64,000 bases of DNA. Source: Flavobacteriales bacterium (GTDB taxonomy: Bacteria > Bacteroidota > Bacteroidia > Flavobacteriales_F > PHOS-HE28). Where the stretch lies: contig JAMLHB010000003.1 of assembly GCA_023957375.1 (NCBI GenBank), positions 193,830 to 257,829 of the forward strand, written 5' to 3'. Position numbers and translations under genes: made by a program. Below are positions 41,342-51,826 of this stretch, one piece after another; the first letter of the stretch is position 1, and each line of letters opens with the position of its first letter. The notes under the pieces were generated by a model. It was not told the DNA's origin. It was given only the letters and a program-made list of their open reading frames with translations, and did no database searches.

Positions 41342-42235
41342 CTATCCGGGGATCAACCCCAAAGAAAAGAGCAATGCCGTTACTAAGGTGGAAAGGGCCA
41401 GCACTTTCATCTGCGGGTCCAGCTCGCGCGGCACCGTGTTGCGCTGCACCCTGCGCAGGTGGCGGTCCAGCAGCACAAAGCCCAGTACGAAGGCCAGCTG
41501 CCACCAGCCGCGGAAGTGCATCATGGTAAACACCAGCAAACAGCCGAAGCCGCCGTAGATCAGGGCAGCGTGGTAGCGCTTGGCATGGGCCGTACCCATG
41601 CGCACCGCCATGGTGCGTTTGCCATTGGCCGCATCGCCCACCGCATCGCGCATGTTGTTCAGGTTGAGCATGGCGGCGGACAACAGGCCGATGCCCAACG
41701 CGGGCAGCACGGTGGCCGTCCGGAGTTCGCCGGTATGCAGAAAACAGGTGCCCATCACCCCGGCAAGGCCGAAGAAGAGCACCACGCTGATGTCGCCCAA
41801 ACCCGCATAGCCATAAGGATTGCTGCCGAAGGTGTACTTCACGGCGGCGCCGATGGCCAGCAGGCCGAGCAGGAAGAAGCCCAACGTGGTTGCCGTGAAC
41901 CCCAGCGCCACGATAATCAACGTGATGCCCGAGGCCAAGGCCAGCCCGCCACAGACCCATAAGGCGCGCTTCATTGCGGCCGGTGCTATGGCGCCGCTCT
42001 GCACGGCGCGTTGCGGACCCACGCGGCTTTCATCATCGGTGCCGTGCTCATGATCGCCCAGGTCATTGGCCAGGTTGCTTAGCACTTGCAGCAGGATGGC
42101 GGTGAGCAGTGCCAGCCCGAACACGGACCAGCGGAAGCCGTGGAAGAACCCGGCCAGCGCACTGCCCGTGATGATGCTGCTGATGGCCAAGGGCAGCGTG
42201 CGGGGGCGGAAGGCGTGGAGCCAGGGGCGGAGCAT
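41342..42235 (-). CDS. menA: 1,4-Dihydroxy-2-naphthoate prenyltransferase
   Basis: 297 residues, a UbiA-family membrane enzyme that attaches the polyprenyl chain to DHNA. The first Asp-rich motif appears as NLANDLGDHEHGTDD; the second region near NLNNMRDAVGDAANGKRT supplies the other Asp cluster. Eight or nine hydrophobic segments alternate with these loops. Its start codon overlaps the stop of the DUF5615 gene by one base (TAATG), so the toxin-like pair and the men genes share a transcript. Confidence 0.93.
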   Translation of the reverse strand: MLRPWLHAFRPRTLPLAISSIITGSALAGFFHGFRWSVFGLALLTAILLQVLSNLANDLGDHEHGTDDESRVGPQRAVQSGAIAPAAMKRALWVCGGLALASGITLIIVALGFTATTLGFFLLGLLAIGAAVKYTFGSNPYGYAGLGDISVVLFFGLAGVMGTCFLHTGELRTATVLPALGIGLLSAAMLNLNNMRDAVGDAANGKRTMAVRMGTAHAKRYHAALIYGGFGCLLVFTMMHFRGWWQLAFVLGFVLLDRHLRRVQRNTVPRELDPQMKVLALSTLVTALLFSLGLIPG

Positions 42236-42564
42236 TACGCGATCAGCTCCATGCGGTCAGGATACACGTTGACCAACTTGCTCGTTGGTAGCGCCGCCTC
42301 TATTGCGGGCCATCGGCTGTAGAGCCACTGGATAAACGCGGACCGCCGCAAATTGCCAATGCGGAGGTGTACCACACGCGGTGGCGGCCCTGCGAGTTGG
42401 ATGCGTTGCGTAAAGTCGGCGTCCTTGCTGATGATCACCAGGTCATGGGCCGTTGCATACTGCCACAGATAGGAATCGCTGGGCTGGGCACCCAATTGCC
42501 GCGAATGCATGATCGGCAATGCCGTAGGCATGGGAAGGTTTTCATCAATGAGCAGGCCTTTCAT
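42235..42564 (-). CDS. DUF5615 PIN-like protein, putative toxin
   Basis: 109 residues. The N-terminus MKGLLIDENLP carries the acidic residues of PIN-like folds, followed by ATAHDLVIISKDADF with further Asp residues; both are the hallmark of DUF5615 (Mut7-C/PIN-like) proteins, which are paired with DUF433 proteins. Predicted ribonuclease activity is inference. It overlaps the DUF433 gene upstream (ATGA at 42561-42564) and menA downstream by one base. Confidence 0.8.
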   Translation of the reverse strand: MKGLLIDENLPMPTALPIMHSRQLGAQPSDSYLWQYATAHDLVIISKDADFTQRIQLAGPPPRVVHLRIGNLRRSAFIQWLYSRWPAIEAALPTSKLVNVYPDRMELIA

Positions 42565-42788
42565 GCCAAGGGCAACGCCGAGTAGCTGTTGCCCATCATG
42601 CGAGCGGCCACTTCCACACAGGCAAGTACTTGTTCGCGGGTGATCGACGGATATGCCGCGAGCACTTCGTCCACATCATCCCCGGCAGCCAACAGTTCCA
42701 ATACGGATCGGACGGTAATGCGCGTACCTTTTACTACGGGCATTCCGTTTGCCACGTCCGGCTTGATCTCGATCAATTCGTGCAGCAT
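42561..42788 (-). CDS. DUF433 protein, putative antitoxin
   Basis: 75 residues. DUF433 signature: IEIKPDVANGMPVVKGTRITV near the start, then SVLELLAAGDDVDEVLAAYP and ITREQV, a small winged-helix-like fold. The family is the usual partner of DUF5615 and is assumed to bind DNA and the toxin. First gene of a unit that continues into DUF5615, menA, menC and menE. Confidence 0.82.
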   Translation of the reverse strand: MLHELIEIKPDVANGMPVVKGTRITVRSVLELLAAGDDVDEVLAAYPSITREQVLACVEVAARMMGNSYSALPLA

Positions 42789-42891
42789 GGCCGAAAGTTA
42801 CGACCGGCGACCGGATGTGGGAAAACGTCGCAAGGTCCCATCCAACCGCTGCGGGCCGCTACGCACACCGGCGATTCCAGCCCTTCCCCTC

Positions 42892-42921
42892 CCGCAGGGT
42901 CTCCGCTTCCGGACCCTGCGG
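42892..42921. repeat. REP hairpin downstream of the transposase
   Basis: CCGCAGGGTC (42892-42901) pairs perfectly with GACCCTGCGG (42912-42921) around a 10-base spacer TCCGCTTCCG, 18 bases after the transposase stop. A T-rich stretch near 42930 follows. It is in the opposite orientation to the REP at 43549. Confidence 0.8.
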
Positions 42922-42939
42922 TCCCCGTGTTTTTGTACC

Positions 42940-43506
42940 TCATGCCCGTAACGCTATTTGATAGTTCTCCACCGGTGCGTTCGAGGCATCGCCCCGTTCG
43001 TAGAACGCAGCGCTGGAATGCGGATAGTCCAAGTAGTTCTCCGCAAGCATCCACTTCCCCTTCACCGGGTTGGCGTGGATGTAGTCCAGCTTCTGTTGGA
43101 TCATCGCCTCATCGTAACACTCGCGGATATCCGATGAAGGCATGAACACCCGGCAAACCTGCCCACGGGCCGCATCGCTGGGCCGCACGGCATCTTTCAG
43201 CGTAACCAGCAGGCCATGCTCTTCGAGGTCGACCAATCGGCTCCGGATCTCGTACGCCAGGAACCGCTTGGCATTGGCCAGCAGCGCATTGATGGACAGC
43301 CCTTCCGGGGTGTGGATGAGCAAGTGTACATGGTTGGGCATGATCACATAACCGAAGATGCGGCACCCCTTGGTTTTAGCGATGTGCATCCAGCGGCAAC
43401 CATGGTCGTAAGCATCCGCCCGCTCAATGAGCGGCAGCCAATTCCAGCACGTGAACGTGCAATAGAACGTGGCGCCATCAGTGCGTTGGAGGGTGCGCAC
43501 GGGCAT
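42940..43506 (-). CDS. REP-associated tyrosine transposase (RAYT, Y1 family)
   Basis: 188 residues. An HUH-type Y1 transposase: the metal-binding HUH motif is YVIMPNHVHLLIHTP, and the nucleophile Tyr lies in IQQKLDYIHANPVKGKW, the typical end motif of RAYTs. RAYTs are domesticated IS200-like enzymes that nick or cleave REP hairpins and are thought to spread them. REP hairpins flank this gene on both sides in opposite orientation. The upstream one abuts a lipoprotein gene cut after 59 codons, so insertion probably broke that gene. All catalytic motifs are intact, so it may be active. Confidence 0.9.
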   Translation of the reverse strand: MPVRTLQRTDGATFYCTFTCWNWLPLIERADAYDHGCRWMHIAKTKGCRIFGYVIMPNHVHLLIHTPEGLSINALLANAKRFLAYEIRSRLVDLEEHGLLVTLKDAVRPSDAARGQVCRVFMPSSDIRECYDEAMIQQKLDYIHANPVKGKWMLAENYLDYPHSSAAFYERGDASNAPVENYQIALRA

Positions 43507-43548
43507 GCTTGGTGAAAGTATGGAAAGTTCATCATCACACTGTGGTTG

Positions 43549-43576
43549 CGTAGGGTCCCGAGGCGGAGACCCTGCG
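43549..43576. repeat. REP hairpin upstream of the transposase
   Basis: CGTAGGGTC (43549-43557) pairs with GACCCTGCG (43568-43576), one T-G pair, around the 10-base spacer CCGAGGCGGA. The homology between lipoprotein paralogues ends 9 bases further on, at 43585. Confidence 0.75.
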
Positions 43577-43584
43577 AGAGTTGG

Positions 43585-43763
43585 AACGAAATTTCCATCT
43601 CATACCTCCAATTCCCAAAAGTATCATACACATCGTATGTGCCAACGAATTTCTGTCGTCCATCCACCGGGACTGAAGGGCTTGGTGCCATAACATCCCG
43701 CTTACAGCCGTAGCTGCAAACCAATGTGGCAGCCAGTGCCAAAGCGATGTTCAACTTGCTCAT
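43585..43763 (-). pseudogene. Truncated lipoprotein paralogue A
   Basis: The first 59-60 codons of the five-member lipoprotein family (MSKLNIALALAATLVCSYGC as signal, then DGRQKFVGTYDVYDTFGNW). Apart from the signal region the bases equal copy E (45680-45858) almost exactly. Homology stops at 43585, directly beside the REP hairpin and transposase. The open frame runs on through the REP to 43344 but codes for no family sequence there. So the gene has lost about 100 residues. Confidence 0.75.
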
Positions 43764-43796
43764 TGGTTGATCAGGTTGCAGTTGTGTGCGCCATGA

Positions 43797-44288
43797 CTAC
43801 TCCTCCTCCCGCTTCACCGCATACTCCCGGTAGCTCTGCCTAAAGTAGGGCACTCCATCCGCCACATAGAAGGCAATGTTGTCCTTCAGGTAGGACATCC
43901 GAATAGTGTCAGCCACCAACGTATTGTTGAACAAAGTGTCGTATTCGCGGAAAAGGGCCCATCTATGGCCGGAATGGTCCACGATTCCGAACCATCCAAA
44001 TAGATTTAAATAGTTTGATGCATCTTCCTTATCATGCTGAATATAGAAGTCAAATTCCCCTCCCCACCCATTGATAAATAAAGAATCGTAAGTGCCATTC
44101 TCATTATGCTTTATTATAGCCATTTCATATAGCCAATTTCCGATAGTATCATAAACGTCGTACATGCCAACGAATTTCTGTCGTCCATCCACCGGGACTG
44201 AAGGGCCTGGTGCCATAACATCCCGCTTACAGCCGTAGCTGCAAACCAATGTGGCAACCAGCAGAAGAGCTACGTTCTGCTTGTTCAT
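43797..44288 (-). CDS. Lipoprotein paralogue B
   Basis: 163 residues, intact. Signal MNKQNVALLLVATLVCSYGC with lipid attachment at Cys 20. Family layout: conserved DGRQKFVGMYDVYDTIGNW, a variable middle with GWGGEFDFYIQ, then WALFREYDTLF, and a strongly conserved end (YLKDNIAFYVADGVPYFRQ, then SYREYAVKREEE). The size suits a lipocalin-like or small beta-barrel lipoprotein, but I do not recognise a known family. The middle third is AT-rich compared with both ends. Function unknown; probably outer-membrane and surface-exposed. Confidence 0.7.
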   Translation of the reverse strand: MNKQNVALLLVATLVCSYGCKRDVMAPGPSVPVDGRQKFVGMYDVYDTIGNWLYEMAIIKHNENGTYDSLFINGWGGEFDFYIQHDKEDASNYLNLFGWFGIVDHSGHRWALFREYDTLFNNTLVADTIRMSYLKDNIAFYVADGVPYFRQSYREYAVKREEE

Positions 44289-44320
44289 TGCTTAATCAGT
44301 TTGCGGTTATGTACCATGCC

Positions 44321-44809
44321 TCACTCCCGCTTTACCGCATACTCCCGGTAGCTCTGCCTAAAGTATGGCACTCCATCCGCCACATAGAAGGCAATATTGT
44401 CTTTTAGGTAGGACATACGAAGCGTGTCGTGGACCAAGCTGTTATATTGAAACACATAATCATACTCTGAGAAAAGGGCCCAACGATGGCCTTCATAATC
44501 TGTAATTCCAAAATCTCCTATAAAATTCAAGTAATTTGAAATGTTTCCTATGTTTCGCTGTACGTATACATCAAAGGCCCCCCCCCATCCTTCAATGAGG
44601 AGTGAATCGAAGGGACTGAAATCATGAGCTACTGAAATTTCCATCTCATAGCGCCAATTTCCAAGCGTGTCATAAACATCGTACACTCCTACGAACTTCT
44701 GCCGACCGTCTACTGCGACTACATCATCGGGTTCCACAACATCCCTCTTACAACCAAAGCAGCAAGCCAAGATGGCAACTAAAGGGAGTGCCATGTTCAA
44801 CTTGCTCAT
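44321..44809 (-). CDS. Lipoprotein paralogue C, with G9 tract
   Basis: 162 residues, intact. Signal MSKLNMALPLVAILACCFGC, lipid attachment at Cys 20. It shares the family core and the conserved C-terminus SYREYAVKRE. The codons for W-G-G-A in EGWGGAFDVYVQ contain nine consecutive G bases on the coding strand (44578-44586), at the same place where copy D is frameshifted. A one-base slip would end the protein early. The signal peptide differs from B, D and E but resembles truncated copy A. Confidence 0.7.
   Translation of the reverse strand: MSKLNMALPLVAILACCFGCKRDVVEPDDVVAVDGRQKFVGVYDVYDTLGNWRYEMEISVAHDFSPFDSLLIEGWGGAFDVYVQRNIGNISNYLNFIGDFGITDYEGHRWALFSEYDYVFQYNSLVHDTLRMSYLKDNIAFYVADGVPYFRQSYREYAVKRE
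44578..44586 (-). repeat. Nine-G homopolymer inside lipoprotein C
   Basis: Nine C on the plus strand, coding as TGG GGG GGG Gcc on the minus strand. Long G tracts of this kind slip during replication and switch genes on and off in many surface-protein loci. Confidence 0.6.
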
Positions 44810-44840
44810 TGCTTGATCAGTTTGCGGTTGTGTACCATGC

Positions 44841-45331
44841 CTATTCCTCCTCCCGCTTCACCCCATACTCCCGGTAGCTCTGACTGAAATGCGGCACTCC
44901 CTCGGCTACATAAAAAGCAATATTGTCCTTTATATAGGACATTCTGAGGGTATCATTAAGAAATCTATTATACATGAACAATGAATCATATTCAGAAAAT
45001 AAAGCCCAATGTTTTCCATGATAATCTTGTATTCCAAATACTCCTGTAAAGTTTAAAAAATTGGATTGATCATTTTTATGATGTTGAACATAAAAATCAA
45101 TATCACTCCCCACCCTTCGATGAATATAGAATCTATTGGTTCACCTTCGTGCAAAGAAATTTGCATTTCGTATTTCCAATTCCCAAGAGTGTCATATACA
45201 TCATAAGTGCCGACGAATTTTTGGCGCCCATCCATGGAAATTGATGGGCCTGGTTCCACGACATCCCTCCTACAGCCATAGCTGCAAACCAATTTGGCAG
45301 CCAGCAGAAGAGCTACGTACTGCTTGTTCAT
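44841..45331 (-). pseudogene. Lipoprotein paralogue D, frameshifted
   Basis: The N-terminal part (45331 to ~45110: MNKQYVALLLAAKLVCSYGC to IDSIFIEGWG) and the C-terminal part (~45110 to 44841: GSDIDFYVQHHKN to REYGVKREEE) lie in different frames. They join cleanly if one G is restored in the run TGGGGAG (C4 at 45108-45111 on the plus strand), giving GWG-SDIDFYVQ, aligned to GWG-GEFDFYIQ of copy B. So it is a one-base deletion in a G run, by mutation, phase variation or sequencing error. Everything else is intact. AT-rich in the middle. Confidence 0.7.
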
Positions 45332-45363
45332 TGCCTGATCAGTTTGGCGGTTGCATACCATGC

Positions 45364-45858
45364 TTATTCTTCCTCCCGCTTCACCGCATACTCCCGGTAG
45401 CTCTGCCTAAAGTAGGGCACTCCATCCGCCACATAAAAAGCAATGTTGTCCTTCAGGTAGGACATCCGGAGGGTGTCATTCATTAGATACCCATTCATAA
45501 ACAATGAATCATATTCCTCAAATAAGGCCCATCTATTGCCTTCATGGTCTTGAATTCCAAATTGACCATTTAGATTCAAATAATTTGAGGTATTCCCATC
45601 ATCATGTTGAATGAATAGATTAAATTCATCTCCCCAATTTTCTACATACACTGAATCTATATTCGCTATCCCTGGATGCAACGAAATTTCCATCTCATAC
45701 CTCCAATTCCCAAAAGTATCATACACATCGTATGTGCCAACGAATTTCTGTCGTCCATCCACCGGGACTGAAGGGCTTGGTGCCATAACATCCCGCTTAC
45801 AGCCGTAGCTGCAAACCATTGAAGCAACCAGCAGAAGAGCTACGTACTGCTTGTTCAT
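45364..45858 (-). CDS. Lipoprotein paralogue E
   Basis: 164 residues, intact, the first unit after the anchor-L gene. Signal MNKQYVALLLVASMVCSYGC with Cys 20 as anchor; core GRQKFVGTYDVYDTFGNWR; the centre reads ENWGDEFNLFIQHDDGNTS, then WALFEEYDSLF and the common C-terminus. Its ATG overlaps the anchor-L stop (ATGA at 45855-45858), so it is translationally coupled and probably represents the ancestral arrangement from which the other units were copied. Function unknown. Confidence 0.75.
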   Translation of the reverse strand: MNKQYVALLLVASMVCSYGCKRDVMAPSPSVPVDGRQKFVGTYDVYDTFGNWRYEMEISLHPGIANIDSVYVENWGDEFNLFIQHDDGNTSNYLNLNGQFGIQDHEGNRWALFEEYDSLFMNGYLMNDTLRMSYLKDNIAFYVADGVPYFRQSYREYAVKREEE

Positions 45859-48263
45859 TGCTTAATCAGTTTGCGGTTGTGTATCATGCCTTGGCTGTCC
45901 AAGGCCACAAGGCAATAGCTGGCGGGGGCTAGGCCAACCAGTTGCAGGATGGTGGTGGGCGCGCCTTGCAAACTCCGCTCCAGTACACGGCGCCCTGTGG
46001 CATCCAGCAGCCACACCTTGGCAAGACCGGGGGCGTATTCCAGCCACACCTGGTCAGTGGCCGGGTTGGGCCGCAGGTATAGTTCCGCCGGTTCCATTAA
46101 ATCGGACTCTATGAATGATACGTCTGTTGACATCGCGCTATCAAGGATGCCAGGCGTTATGCCGCCTTCCTGAAGGTCGTCGCTCGCTTCGGCCAAGAAC
46201 GGTGTTGGTGGCTCAGGGACCATTCCGGGGGACCCAAAGACGGAGATGTCACCCGTATACGTGATCTGGCCATTGCATCCGGTCAGGGTGAGGATATAGT
46301 AATAGACATAATTGCTCACCGGGCAGCCATGGCAGAAGAGGTCGCCTGTGTTGGCGGTTCCGTCCCAATAGATGCTCGACACTACGTTATAGCCCGGAGC
46401 CCTTGACCTGAACGGACAACAGCCTTCGGCCCAATCCTCGTGCAACCGCCACACGGTGGCATCCCATTGGTTGAAGATCCTCAGATCGAAAGCCATGGCC
46501 CCATACGCACAATATGGATGGTCCACATCCAACACCTGCCAGGTGTCGTTCACCCCGTCCCCATTCGGCGTGATCACATTGGCCAGTACATTGTGCGTGC
46601 CTTCTCCATACGTGTCAACAGTAAAACCACCCCAGCCATCGCAGCAGACATTGCAATCCTCGATGCAGGTGTTGGGATCGGCCACGGCCAAAAAACCCGG
46701 CCCGCCGAAGAATCCGGTTTGTAGGTTGATGGAAGGTGCCCTGAATTCCACGTCCGCATCACCGGTGCTCACGTCACCGTCCTGCTGGCCGGGATCAACG
46801 CTGTACCCGGCCGTGATGCTTTCGCCCGCCACCGTGAGGGCGGGCAGGGGCAGGCCCCCCGGCGACCGGTTTTCGTAGTACACCCGCACGGGGCAGAAGT
46901 CGCAGACCACCTTGATGGTGATGGTGCAAGTTTGGTCCAGTTCTTCACACGTGTTATTGTCAGTAAGGAGAACACTCAGTGTATGGAATCCAATATCAGC
47001 CATGCTTGGTGTCCAGCAAAAAGTTCCGGTAGCTTGTGGGGCATTGTTGCTTGTAAAACTGCCACCTAGGGTACTTCCAATAGGTGCAAGTAGAACCCGT
47101 TCATTCGCCGCATCGCTCGTAGGAATGGTAAAACAGGTTTGCTCACCCGCCTGCATGGTGACGGTATACACACCGGTGCCGTTCACGCCGAGGCATTGGG
47201 GCGGGTAATTGATGGGGTCATGCACGGTAAGCATGGCTGCGGGTGAGGCCGTGGAAAGGGAACAACCGGGCAGGTATTCGGCGGTAACGGAGTAGGTGTT
47301 CTGGCCCAGACTGGCGGTAGTGGTCACCGTTTGCAGGCCCACGCCGGTTTGGTCGGTGCTCCAGGTGTAGTTCCACGAAGGGTCTCCTTGCACGTGCAGG
47401 GTGATCTCCTCGCCGGCGCACACGGGCGAGGGGGCGATGGTGAGGGGGCCGGGCTGTGCATACGGTGAAGTGAGCGTGCCTTGCTTAAGAAAAATAGCGG
47501 ATTGTTTTACATGATCGGATGTATTGCAGATAGCGATCTTTGCATGATAAGTTGCATTGCATTGGACGTCAATTGTAGCATCCATTACTACTGTTCGTCC
47601 GTCAAAGACAAATGCCCAAGTAGACTCGTCATCGCCATTTTGCCCTAAGCCGGGGTTGGGAGTTGGTATGAAATAATTGGCGTTTGTGAATGAGTTGACG
47701 GTATTTATGGAAACAGCAGCACCGCCAATTGTAGCAATATTGATTGAATTATTTGAGAACGGACCGTTAATCCCCGGGCCTGATATGAAAAATCCGAAAG
47801 CATCGTTAAAATTTGAGCCAACCCATTCCGGATACTCGTTGGAAGCGAAAACATACGAAAATGTGGCTGTATTTCCAGTTGAGATAAAATCGAATTCCAA
47901 GATGGCCGCATCCTTTGGATATGAAGTTCCGTTAATTTGATCTAAATCAGAATCGCTGGCATCAGAATCCAATTGATATTGTTGGAGGCATTCGGCCAAT
48001 GCTCCGCAATTCATGTTATGCACATATGCCGCATCGCATGTAGTTAATACAACACCGGTGGAGATACCGGTCTTATTCATGCCATTCCAGAAGTTTGCCA
48101 ATTGGACGGATTGCCCACTGAAAGTTGCATTGAACACTTGTACATTGGGACCGGCCAGTTCTGAAGATGCAGTAACAGCACTAATATAGTTTACGCTAGG
48201 CACCTGCGCCAATAATGTTGCTGTAAATATTACAGACGCTCCTGACAAGATGTGACGAACCAT
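45855..48263 (-). CDS. Choice-of-anchor L protein with both gliding-type and type A T9SS C-termini
   Basis: 802 residues. Signal peptide MVRHILSGASVIFTATLLA; anchor-L domain about 20-270 (NATFSGQSVQLANFWNGMNK, FASNEYPEWVGSNFNDAFGF, SGPGINGPFSNN), related to but clearly diverged from those at 23601 and 25252; an Ig/PKD-like middle; a CHU_C-like domain (NVITPNGDGVNDTWQVLD) around 575-690; then a linker and a complete type A sorting tail (LYLRPNPATDQ to HNRKLIKQ). Having both C-terminal types is unusual. The 5' third is AT-rich, the 3' part GC-rich. It follows the SprB-like gene by a few bases and overlaps lipoprotein E by four. Confidence 0.85.
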   Translation of the reverse strand: MVRHILSGASVIFTATLLAQVPSVNYISAVTASSELAGPNVQVFNATFSGQSVQLANFWNGMNKTGISTGVVLTTCDAAYVHNMNCGALAECLQQYQLDSDASDSDLDQINGTSYPKDAAILEFDFISTGNTATFSYVFASNEYPEWVGSNFNDAFGFFISGPGINGPFSNNSINIATIGGAAVSINTVNSFTNANYFIPTPNPGLGQNGDDESTWAFVFDGRTVVMDATIDVQCNATYHAKIAICNTSDHVKQSAIFLKQGTLTSPYAQPGPLTIAPSPVCAGEEITLHVQGDPSWNYTWSTDQTGVGLQTVTTTASLGQNTYSVTAEYLPGCSLSTASPAAMLTVHDPINYPPQCLGVNGTGVYTVTMQAGEQTCFTIPTSDAANERVLLAPIGSTLGGSFTSNNAPQATGTFCWTPSMADIGFHTLSVLLTDNNTCEELDQTCTITIKVVCDFCPVRVYYENRSPGGLPLPALTVAGESITAGYSVDPGQQDGDVSTGDADVEFRAPSINLQTGFFGGPGFLAVADPNTCIEDCNVCCDGWGGFTVDTYGEGTHNVLANVITPNGDGVNDTWQVLDVDHPYCAYGAMAFDLRIFNQWDATVWRLHEDWAEGCCPFRSRAPGYNVVSSIYWDGTANTGDLFCHGCPVSNYVYYYILTLTGCNGQITYTGDISVFGSPGMVPEPPTPFLAEASDDLQEGGITPGILDSAMSTDVSFIESDLMEPAELYLRPNPATDQVWLEYAPGLAKVWLLDATGRRVLERSLQGAPTTILQLVGLAPASYCLVALDSQGMIHNRKLIKQ

Positions 48264-48269
48264 GATGAA

Positions 48270-50037
48270 TCAGTGCTTAAGAAGGCGACGCTGCAGATCC
48301 AAATTCTCTTGTTGGAGTCCTTGGATTTGCTTCTCCATCGCGATCAGATGAAGGGTAATCACCTCGATCTTCTCCATCAGCATGGCATCCGTCTTCACGA
48401 CATCCAACCCGCTCTCCACCATTTGAGCAGCGGAAGGCACGCCTGGCAGATGGCCGTGTTCCTTGATGAAGGTATCCACTTCCTTTAGCGGCATTAGGCG
48501 ATAATTGGGCAGGAACACATGGTCGCTCCATTCGGACGTGTTCCGCAATGCCACCTTCACCTTCTCCGTAAGAATTCCCTTTGCCCACGAACAGGCTGTA
48601 ATCATCATTCGGCATGTCCTCGGTGCCAATGCCCACTTTGTCATAGGCAAAGGTCATGATGGGGTGCGGGTTGTTCCAATCACCGAGGATGTGTCCCTTG
48701 CCGTTCTGATCAATGGATAGTCCCCAAGCTGCTTGATTATTCCGTGCCCAAAGGACGGGTCCTGTGGAGGCGGAAGATGAAGTGACGATATCACCATCAG
48801 TTCCATCCCGGACCAACAAGCCCCCGCCGACGTTCAAAAGTCCTTCACTTGCCGTTGTTCCCACCATCAGTGCTCCACCCACATTCAGTAAGCCCGCATC
48901 AGCCGTGGTGCCGATCTTCACCTTGCCATCCCCTTGTATCCGTACTGTTTCAGTTCCGGCAGTGCCCCGCGTGGTGATCAGGCCGTTCTTGGTGATCCGC
49001 ATGCGCTCCACTCCGTTGGTGTGGAAGGGCAGGTCTTCAAAATTCAATGTGCCGAGCAACGGACGGGGATCTTCGTCACAGAGGTAGGTGAAATCATTTC
49101 CGTGTACCCGCCAGTAGGGCACGCCATCCCCTTCGCCGCCCGTGCACGGGCCGGTAGAAGAGATGCCCATGACCTCCCCCAAGGCCGTGGACATTCCACC
49201 GCCTTTAACAACCCCGAATTCGTCCCGATAAAGCACTCCGGTCACGGTGTCATTGCCCCAGATCTTGATCTTCCCGTCGGCGGTTAGCCGCAGGCCTTCT
49301 TGCCCGTTGGCCTTCAGCACCAGGTCCTTGTTGTCGGCCGTGCCCAAGTAGTTGGTGCCGGGCACGGTGCCGGCATTGCCGCCCATGCCCCAGTTGCTGG
49401 GTGCGGGTCCTCGTAAATAGATGGTGGTGTTGGCACCCTCGCAACCGTTGGCGTCGGCCACGGTGATCTTGTAGTCGCGCGGGCCCAAGTTGTAGCGGTT
49501 GGCCCCGGTGGGGCCATCGCTCCAGCCAACCGTGAAGGGGGCCGCACCGCCCATCACCACCACGGCGGCGTTGCCGTTGTTGCAGTCATAACAGCTGATG
49601 TTGTACCCGTTGGAGTACTCGTACACGTCGACGTCCAGCTTCATGGGCAGGGGCTGCTCCAGGGTGATCTCCGCGGTGCCTTGCTCGCCGTGTGCATCAT
49701 ATACGTCCACACGGTAATACCCGGCGGCAAGGCCGGCGAGCGATGCGCCCGACTGGCCATTGCTCCATTTGTATTCATAAGGTGGCGCTCCGCCTGTGGC
49801 ATCCGCCAGCAGCGTGCCGTCCTTCATGCCGAAGCAGCTTACCCCGAAGCCATGGTAGTCACTGCGGGTGAGTGAGACATGGACCGGCGGGGCCGCAGCC
49901 CCCCATGCCGGAATGGTCAAGGTTAGGAAGAGCAGCCCCCCCCCCAGAAAAGTATTTGAATGAACGCATATCGAACGGGTTTGGACGGGTGAAGCTATAC
50001 AATACAGATGTCGTTCTGCAAAATGTGTTGATAACAT
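48270..50037 (-). CDS. SprB-repeat/tail-fibre-like surface protein with two frame anomalies
   Basis: The frame from 50037 covers a hydrophobic signal (LLFLTLTIPAWGAAA), two SprB-like repeats (about 55-200: GFGVSCFGMKDGTLLADATG, NISCYDCNNGNAAVVVMG), then segments as in tail-fibre proteins (NKDLVLKANGQEGLRLTADG). Near 48573-48576 one extra base (GGGAATTC) moves the frame; the other frame continues with YRLMPLKEVDTFIKEHGHLP and VPSAAQMVESGLDV and a coiled coil to the stop at 48270, the usual end of this Bacteroidota family. In the uncorrected frame the gene ends in random sequence. The best signal peptide (ATG 49969, MRSFKYFSGGG) is out of frame because of a G10 tract at 49936-49945. A surface role is likely. 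Confidence 0.7.
49936..49945 (-). repeat. Ten-G homopolymer in the signal-peptide region
   Basis: Ten C on the plus strand. With nine (or twelve) G, the ATG at 49969 would read MRSFKYFSGGGLLFLTLTIP, an ideal signal peptide in frame with the rest. With the ten present it is out of frame, and only the ATG at 50037 reaches the protein. Confidence 0.7.
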
Positions 50038-50146
50038 TTATGGAAATTCCATGGGGGCCAGCTACTGCATGCCGAAATGCGGCGGGTGGATGGTACCACC
50101 TTTGTGCACTGGCGCCCTGCGGGGGCAGGCCGTTCGTTCCGGACTT

Positions 50147-51826
50147 CTATCCGATCGCCCGCAGGTGAGTGAAGTACCCGCGCAGCACCTCCGGTGAAAG
50201 CGCCGCATCCGTGGTGATGTGCAGCACTGCAGGCTGCTCGTGGGGGGCGTACAGCTGTTTCAGCGCGGACTCCAACGAGGCGGCATCGTTGGCTTGGTAG
50301 CACGCCAGCCCATAGCTCTTCACCAACGCCGGGATGTCGCGGCCGTGCGGCGATTCGAACCAGGGCAGCAACGCCGGGTCCTTGTCCGGCCCGGGGATGA
50401 AGCGGAAGATGTTGCCCCCGCCGTTGTCGATCACGATCACCTTCAGCTGCGGCGAAAGGTGCTTGTTCCAGAATGCGTTACTGTCGTAGCAGAAGGCCAC
50501 ATCGCCGGTGATGAGGGTGGTGGTCCTTTGCGAGGCGAAGGCGGCGCCCACGGCGGTACTGGTGCAGCCATCGATGCCGCTGGTGCCCCGGTTGCCGAAG
50601 AAGCGCAGTCCGCGCGTGCGGTCGAAGAGCTGGGCGTATCGCGCGGCGGTGCTGTTGGCGAGGTGTACGTCGCTGCCTTTCGGGATATGGCCCAACAGTG
50701 CTTCGAACACAGTGAGGTCGCAGAAGGATGTTTCCTTCAGCAGGGCCTGGTGCCGTTCGCGCATGCGCTGGGCCACCATGCGCCACGCTTCGCCGTAGAG
50801 GCTTTCGTTGGGCTTCACCTGGTTTTCCAACTGGGCGAAGCAGATGTGGGGCGCCACCGCGATGTGGTGCGTGAGGCTTTGGAACGTGTCCATGGCGCCA
50901 CCGGCATCCACGTGCCAGTGCTGCGCAGGCCGCCATTGGCGCAGCAGTCCTTTGATGCGCTTGCTGACGATGGCGCCGCCGAAGGTGATGAGCACATCGG
51001 GCTTCAGGTCGGCCTCATTGCCTGCGTGGATGCCCTCGAGGGTACGGTCGATGCAGGTGATGAAGGCGGGATCGTCCAGGTTGGAGGTGGCCTCGGTGAG
51101 CACGGTGAACTGCGGCAGTGCGGCGAGCTTGCGGAGCTGTGCGCGCATGCCTTCGCTCCACAGGCCTTGGCCCGCAAGCACCATCACCTTCAAGGAAGAA
51201 GACAGCTGGTGCGCCCGCCAGCCGCGGTCGGGCAACAGGAAGGCTTCCACGGGTACGGGCGCCACGATGCGCGGATCACCGTTCACTTCGGTGGTGCCGT
51301 ACAGCGGTTCCTCGAAGGGCACGTTCACCTGCACGGGCCCGGCCACCGGGACCAGCGTGGCGTTGATGGCCTCGTTGACCAGGCGGTTGCAGTGCCAATT
51401 GGAAAATTCGTCGGCGGCGCGCGGCAGTTGTACGCTGGCGCGCAGGTGGGGTCGCAGCACATCGCGCTGGCGGATGGTCTGCCCTTCGCCCTGGTCGGTC
51501 CATTCCTGCGGGCGGTCGGCGCTGATCACCAGCAGGGGGATGCGCTGGTAGAATGCTTCGGCGATGGCCGGTGCGTAGTTGAGCAGGGCGCTGCCGCTGG
51601 TGCAGATGAGGGCCACGGGGGCGTGCAGCTGCTGCGCGATGCCGAGGGCGAAGAAGGCGGCGCTGCGCTCATCGATCACCTGCAAGCACCGGATCTCCGG
51701 CCTCGCCGTGAAGGCGATCACCAGCGGCGCATTTCGCGAGCCGGGGCTGATCACCGCATGGTGCACGCCCTTGGCGGCGCAGAGCGCGGCCAGCTCGGCG
51801 GCGGCAAAATGGTCCGAGGTGCGCAT
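50147..51826 (-). CDS. menD: SEPHCHC synthase
   Basis: 559 residues, a thiamine-diphosphate enzyme joining isochorismate and 2-oxoglutarate in menaquinone synthesis. Motifs: AVISPGSRNAPLVIAF near the start, IDERSAAFFALGIAQ with the catalytic Glu region, FGNRGTSGIDGCTSTAVGAA and TGDVAFCYDSNAFW for cofactor and Mg. It starts a few bases after the menF stop, so hotdog thioesterase, menF and menD form one operon. It is the last gene before the SprB-like protein. Confidence 0.95.
   Translation of the reverse strand: MRTSDHFAAAELAALCAAKGVHHAVISPGSRNAPLVIAFTARPEIRCLQVIDERSAAFFALGIAQQLHAPVALICTSGSALLNYAPAIAEAFYQRIPLLVISADRPQEWTDQGEGQTIRQRDVLRPHLRASVQLPRAADEFSNWHCNRLVNEAINATLVPVAGPVQVNVPFEEPLYGTTEVNGDPRIVAPVPVEAFLLPDRGWRAHQLSSSLKVMVLAGQGLWSEGMRAQLRKLAALPQFTVLTEATSNLDDPAFITCIDRTLEGIHAGNEADLKPDVLITFGGAIVSKRIKGLLRQWRPAQHWHVDAGGAMDTFQSLTHHIAVAPHICFAQLENQVKPNESLYGEAWRMVAQRMRERHQALLKETSFCDLTVFEALLGHIPKGSDVHLANSTAARYAQLFDRTRGLRFFGNRGTSGIDGCTSTAVGAAFASQRTTTLITGDVAFCYDSNAFWNKHLSPQLKVIVIDNGGGNIFRFIPGPDKDPALLPWFESPHGRDIPALVKSYGLACYQANDAASLESALKQLYAPHEQPAVLHITTDAALSPEVLRGYFTHLRAIG

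Follow-up and report, generated by a model that had tools for sequence, protein, structure and literature searches.

A gene for a probable cargo of the type IX secretion system (T9SS), followed by a row of five lipoprotein units, was analysed in the window, i.e. the whole 64,000-nucleotide stretch of DNA. Every unit after the first is preceded by a copy of the end of the cargo gene, and the units are mosaics whose segments are related across species. The best explanation, and probably the correct one, is that lipoprotein cassettes behind the cargo gene form a recombining array.

The cargo gene and its lipoprotein units

All parts of the locus lie on the minus strand, in the order stalk gene, cargo gene, and lipoprotein units E, D, C, B and A:

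48277..50037, minus strand: SprB-repeat/coiled-coil stalk gene, upstream of the cargo gene
45855..48263, minus strand: T9SS cargo gene, with a choice-of-anchor L domain (NF038133), a CHU_C region (PF13585) and a C-terminal type A-like sorting tail
45855..45890, minus strand: last cargo codons, source of the copied piece, including the ATGA overlap with lipoprotein E
45364..45858, minus strand: lipoprotein E, intact, 164 aa
45332..45363, minus strand: tail copy before D, with one extra base, its frame running into D
44841..45331, minus strand: lipoprotein D, frameshifted at a G-run (pseudogene or assembly error)
44810..44840, minus strand: tail copy before C, with mini-ORF 44838-44806 (MVHNRKLIKQ-stop) and ATGA
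44321..44809, minus strand: lipoprotein C, intact, 162 aa
44289..44320, minus strand: tail copy before B, with mini-ORF 44317-44285 (MVHNRKLIKQ-stop) and ATGA
43797..44288, minus strand: lipoprotein B, intact, 163 aa
43764..43796, minus strand: tail copy before A, decayed, its mini-ORF stopping early
43581..43763, minus strand: lipoprotein A, 5' part only, ~60 codons
42889..43580, minus strand: REP-associated transposase gene (42940-43506; NF047646) between 32-nt inverted repeats, cutting unit A

The cargo protein matches NF038133 (E 7e-52) and CHU_C (E 2.9e-9, over the Pfam cut-off). For the sorting domain TIGR04183 it reaches 17.1 of 23 bits, below the cut-off, and its ortholog in the relative G019 scores 27.4, above it. 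The host has a T9SS machine, with SprA over its cut-off at 2563.6 bits. Searches of Pfam and NCBIfam returned choice-of-anchor L, CHU_C and the sorting tail for the cargo and no toxin domain, and for this reason the locus is not filed as an immunity array; the cargo could carry a toxin domain of an unrecognised type.

The units are putative lipoprotein genes: their products have a hydrophobic start and a cysteine (C20 of E) that is invariant in 10/10 aligned full-length homologs. Apart from a single Pfam match at chance level, they could be assigned to no family in Pfam or NCBIfam, and they have no convincing relative in the PDB (best E 1.2). An AlphaFold model of E built with 7 sequences had a mean pLDDT of 48, too poor for a fold search. 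Only E, C and B are intact in the window. Unit A is interrupted by the RAYT-like transposase gene, whose match to NF047646 (E 3e-17) stays under the cut-off of that family (62.9 of 80 bits) and whose surrounding repeats are 88% complementary; the rest of lipoprotein A was looked for in the window beyond this element, and none was found.

The order stalk gene to cargo gene is also found in G025 and G019. In the window, the reading frame of the stalk gene shifts near a GGG run at ~48575, and its C-terminal part (LPNYRLMPLKEVDTFIKEHGHLPGVPSA) goes on in another frame (48270-48650). This frameshift and that of D, both at G-runs, may be assembly errors.

Copies of the cargo tail in front of the units

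The cargo gene ends in ...GMIHNRKLIKQ-TGA, and its final ATGA is the start of lipoprotein E. A preliminary description of this DNA had reported a copy of this tail before all five lipoprotein starts, with a duplication breakpoint within another gene's T9SS sorting tail. We found that the 31-33 nt before D, C, B and A can be aligned along their whole length with GGCATGATACACAACCGCAAACTGATTAAGCAATGA, which supports such a breakpoint, and that the piece before E is the gene's own tail and not a copy. All four copies begin at one point (GGCATG or a variant), at or just past the preceding stop codon. Alignment of the spacers with the 3' end of the anchor-L gene, a check proposed in the same description, gave a match for each of them: 34/36 columns are identical for both C and B (ATGA included, score 32 in each case), 30/37 for D (one inserted base, score 22) and 29/38 for A (2-nt insertion, score 19), compared with a maximum of 9 in 5000 shuffles of each.

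The 25-mer CAACCGCAAACTGATYAAGCAATGA, searched with up to 3 mismatches, is present only at this locus in the 3.8-Mb genome (control 0). Among 45 genomes of the genus, it occurs at 8 places in 3 genomes, always before homologous lipoproteins. That the copy might be a general trait of sorting tails was ruled out: the genome has the motif at this locus only, and its next-best sorting tail is 44% identical.

Loci with one to many units in relatives

Clear homologs were found in 5 of the 45 congeneric genomes, the window's own counted. A series of loci with increasing numbers of units, which had been suggested as worth looking for, does exist: 1 unit in G019, 2 in G025, at least 3 in G042 (CALMYC010000079.1) and 5 in the window, the relatives being draft assemblies, with G042 and G025 assembled from metagenomes and the G042 contig only 5.3 kb long. 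Tandem repeats with identical 5' ends are prone to misassembly, and this applies to the G042 array. The ATGA overlap between cargo and lipoprotein is present in the window, G042, G025, G019 and for the first unit of G039.

In G019, an anchor-L gene and a single lipoprotein overlap by ATGA without any spacer (overlap sequence AAGCAATGA), an arrangement that we take as the ancestral form. This single unit, together with the left edge common to the copies of three species, upholds the part of the earlier proposed history in which the copy runs from gene to spacer. Two other species share the tail-lipoprotein junction, which must therefore be old. In G025, the second of two lipoproteins lies behind a decayed tail copy. 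In G042, the third unit has a perfect tail copy, and the second starts directly in an ATGA overlap with the first, the kind of junction expected from a deletion between two AAGC repeats.

In more distant Bacteroidia, the number of lipoproteins per locus ranges from one to four. In G345 (4 lipoproteins), G423 (2), G178 (1) and G112 (1), they are immediately preceded by a T9SS cargo, either anchor-L/CHU_C or of another kind, together with a coiled-coil stalk gene; G190 (1 lipoprotein) has another gene between cargo and lipoprotein, and G052 is an exception, with no cargo nearby. The lipoproteins are thus mostly found behind T9SS or anchor-L cargo across the class, and this gene order ties a lipoprotein family without a name to T9SS cargos across Bacteroidia. 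It also suggests that the lipoprotein may be an outer-membrane partner of the secreted cargo. The four tandem lipoproteins of G345, which belongs to another family (L055:4278-6091), form an independent array, in which 5' ends pair 1/3 and 2/4. The spacers of this array differ and no clear tail copy was seen in them, so tail copies are not needed for amplification.

Cargo replacement and horizontal movement

The upstream cargo of G042 shares its last 77 residues with the window cargo (92%), and its other 256 residues are unrelated; the replacement falls exactly at the sorting-tail boundary. An anchor-L gene is thus not required as the upstream partner: in G042, the same sorting tail and array follow the unrelated cargo part. 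A single lipoprotein with the same spacer and no anchor-L gene, which would have spoken against the history drawn there, was not found as such among the relatives, and G042 comes close to it.

For the sorting tail combined with the lipoprotein's middle and 3' parts (E versus G042_2), the synonymous difference between the window and G042 amounts to 0.23, against 0.49 in menA, menC and menD (Fisher p 4e-8). Since the module differs less than half as much as the men genes, it moved between these lineages after they had diverged, with a change of the cargo body. The whole cargo-lipoprotein locus of the window and a DUF433/DUF5615 gene pair lie between menA and menD (41342-51826), and the locus is an insertion into the conserved men gene cluster. 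The same chromosomal place in relatives was ruled out: menD and menA are direct neighbours or lie close together, with no array, in G042 (where they are ~42 nt apart), G025, G019 and G002. GC3 is 17-47 in the window's lipoprotein middles and 38-42 in the first 200 cargo codons, and 77-86 in the men genes of this GC-rich genome, which suggests that the AT-rich middles and the cargo start were imported.

These exchanges might also be the outcome of sequential displacement, in the style of the Vibrio cholerae T6SS, whereby modules made of a cargo end and a lipoprotein insert upstream, the older lipoprotein is shifted backwards and the 3' end of the displaced cargo becomes the spacer. The different cargo of G042 and the low GC3 of the lipoprotein middles are in line with this, and the paralogues are not clustered by genome, the criterion of PMC5361080. 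G039 (L019:7427-9661) has a 229-residue cargo piece (CHU_C region and sorting tail, without the N-terminal domain) between its two lipoproteins, and the start of a further truncated cargo after the second. However, the remnants have the same length and the same left edge in three species, and independent insertions would need later homologous exchange to reach this state. We find displacement rather unlikely as the origin of the array.

The spacers as possible leaders

It is plausible that the ATGA overlap couples the translation of cargo and lipoprotein. Of the window's four spacers, those of B and C keep the mini-ORF MVHNRKLIKQ-stop with its ATGA; in spacer D the inserted base fuses the mini-ORF in frame to the lipoprotein, and in spacer A the mini-ORF ends early. 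The earlier proposal that duplication preserved translation re-initiation is therefore borne out, as far as the arrangement goes, in two of the four spacers (B and C), and not in D and A.

The spacer could then be kept as a translation-coupling leader, i.e. a mini-ORF ending in ATGA, and selection for coupling, rather than recombination, would explain its conservation. Two observations point that way. Spacer C is identical to that of G042_3 over 32 nt, where ~6 differences would be expected from the divergence of the module (P 0.0008), and the mini-ORFs of B and C differ at synonymous positions only. But gene conversion could yield both the identity and the B/C pattern, D, A and G025_2 have lost the mini-ORF, and unit 2 of G042 has its ATGA overlap with unit 1 although it has no spacer. 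That the spacers persist as leaders appears unlikely.

Units are mosaics

In the middle third of the units, E pairs with G042_2 (93%), D with G025_1 (80%) and G042_1 with G025_2 (88%); paralogues within one genome are ~60-68% alike. AU tests were made on few samples and with the unit groupings known beforehand. For the middle region, they rejected that the window's own units form a clade (p ~1e-42), and for the 5' part they rejected a pairing of E and G042_2 (p 9e-7). The 5' parts of the three G042 units are identical over 149 nt, and synonymous differences between G042_1 and G042_2 affect 1/38 sites in the 5' part versus 30/39 in the middle, where synonymous distances between paralogues are saturated (Fisher p 3e-12). 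The PHI recombination test gave p 0.0005, the lowest value reachable with 2000 permutations. Since middles pair across species and 5' ends are homogenised within a genome, the units are mosaics whose ends have been exchanged and whose middles have persisted for long. The first place behind the cargo is occupied by a different unit lineage in each of three species. Lineages that cross species would be expected, too, if the array had been diverse from the time of the common ancestor.

Plain serial tandem duplication in this lineage, from anchor-L and E to D, C, B and A with later divergence, was the order put forward in the preliminary description and is very improbable: the single-unit relative G019, the edge common to all copies and the spacers of D and A being the most decayed would fit it, but it is refuted by the segment trees, in which the window's units form no clade in the middle region, and by unit lineages that cross species, the D ortholog being first in G025 and the E ortholog second in G042, and the 5' part of A is nearest to E.

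A proposed history of the array

In the recombining array that we favour, the ancestral state would be one lipoprotein gene overlapping the cargo stop codon by ATGA. A single event would have fused the lipoprotein stop codon to the last ~32 nt of the cargo, creating a unit made of cargo tail and lipoprotein; it would predate the split of the three species, or an exchange of the array among them. The unit would then have been multiplied and shuffled by homologous recombination, with a left arm of ~200 nt in total, formed by the tail copy and the conserved first ~170 nt of the lipoprotein, and a right arm formed by its conserved last ~100 nt, such that the middle ~210 nt could stay diverse. Because every unit starts with the cargo tail piece, any lipoprotein could reach the first place with the sorting tail and the ATGA undamaged.

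With its 32 nt, the tail by itself offers little length for homologous recombination, and no case of a crossover within it was seen. We infer that the tail copy takes part in crossovers. If it is the exchange joint, this accounts for the installation of new lipoproteins behind a secreted protein with the sorting signal and the overlapping start intact. A wider proposal, which we put forward as tentative and open to doubt, is that the sorting tail and the downstream lipoprotein make up a mobile exchange module, cargo bodies and cassettes both being swapped with the tail copy as the common recombination joint. Such a module, if real, would be a T9SS counterpart of polymorphic loci for secreted proteins and their partners (or immunity proteins).

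Comparison with known systems

Rows of immunity or lipoprotein genes driven by recombination are already known from T6SS, T7SS and lpl loci (PMC5361080, PMC9484751). In a limited literature search, no such case came up for the type IX system, and nothing was found on anchor-L with T9SS, or on tandem lipoproteins with gene conversion and array.

In the esaG and tipC strings of T7SS, conserved blocks mediate exchange between paralogues (PMC9484751). The present array resembles them by its tandem, non-identical paralogues behind a secreted-protein gene, its conserved 5' and 3' blocks and the exchange between units. As in arrays of the esaG/tipC/lpl kind, copy number varies (1 to 5), and exchange is visible here from the dS contrast, PHI and AU tests. 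Unlike esaG and tipC, the lipoproteins follow a T9SS cargo without a recognised toxin domain, and the same short piece of cargo tail stands before every unit. The related tspA locus has, within its tsaI array, a fragment from the 3' part of the toxin gene (PMC9484751).

The displacement arrays of the V. cholerae T6SS (PMC5361080) also lie behind a secreted-protein gene, with 3' remnants of an upstream gene lying between their members, horizontal movement and no clustering by genome, but their remnants come from different effectors, whereas here one and the same piece recurs. Tandem lipoprotein paralogues whose copy number changes through conserved-block recombination are found in the lpl loci of Staphylococcus aureus (discussed in PMC9484751; see also PMC4470592). 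In lpl the conserved block is central, whereas in the present array conservation is at the ends and variation in the middle.

Orphan Rhs modules (PMC3967940; PMC9484751) likewise combine a downstream unit with a partial copy of the upstream gene, through which recombination can change what follows the main gene. There, the copied part precedes the variable toxin end, whereas here it is the last 32 nt and the cargo protein is unaltered. Lastly, the cargo stop and the lipoprotein start overlap in the same way as the translationally coupled ATGA gene pairs described in PMC6728339, according to which Bacteroidetes make hardly any use of Shine-Dalgarno motifs for re-initiation.
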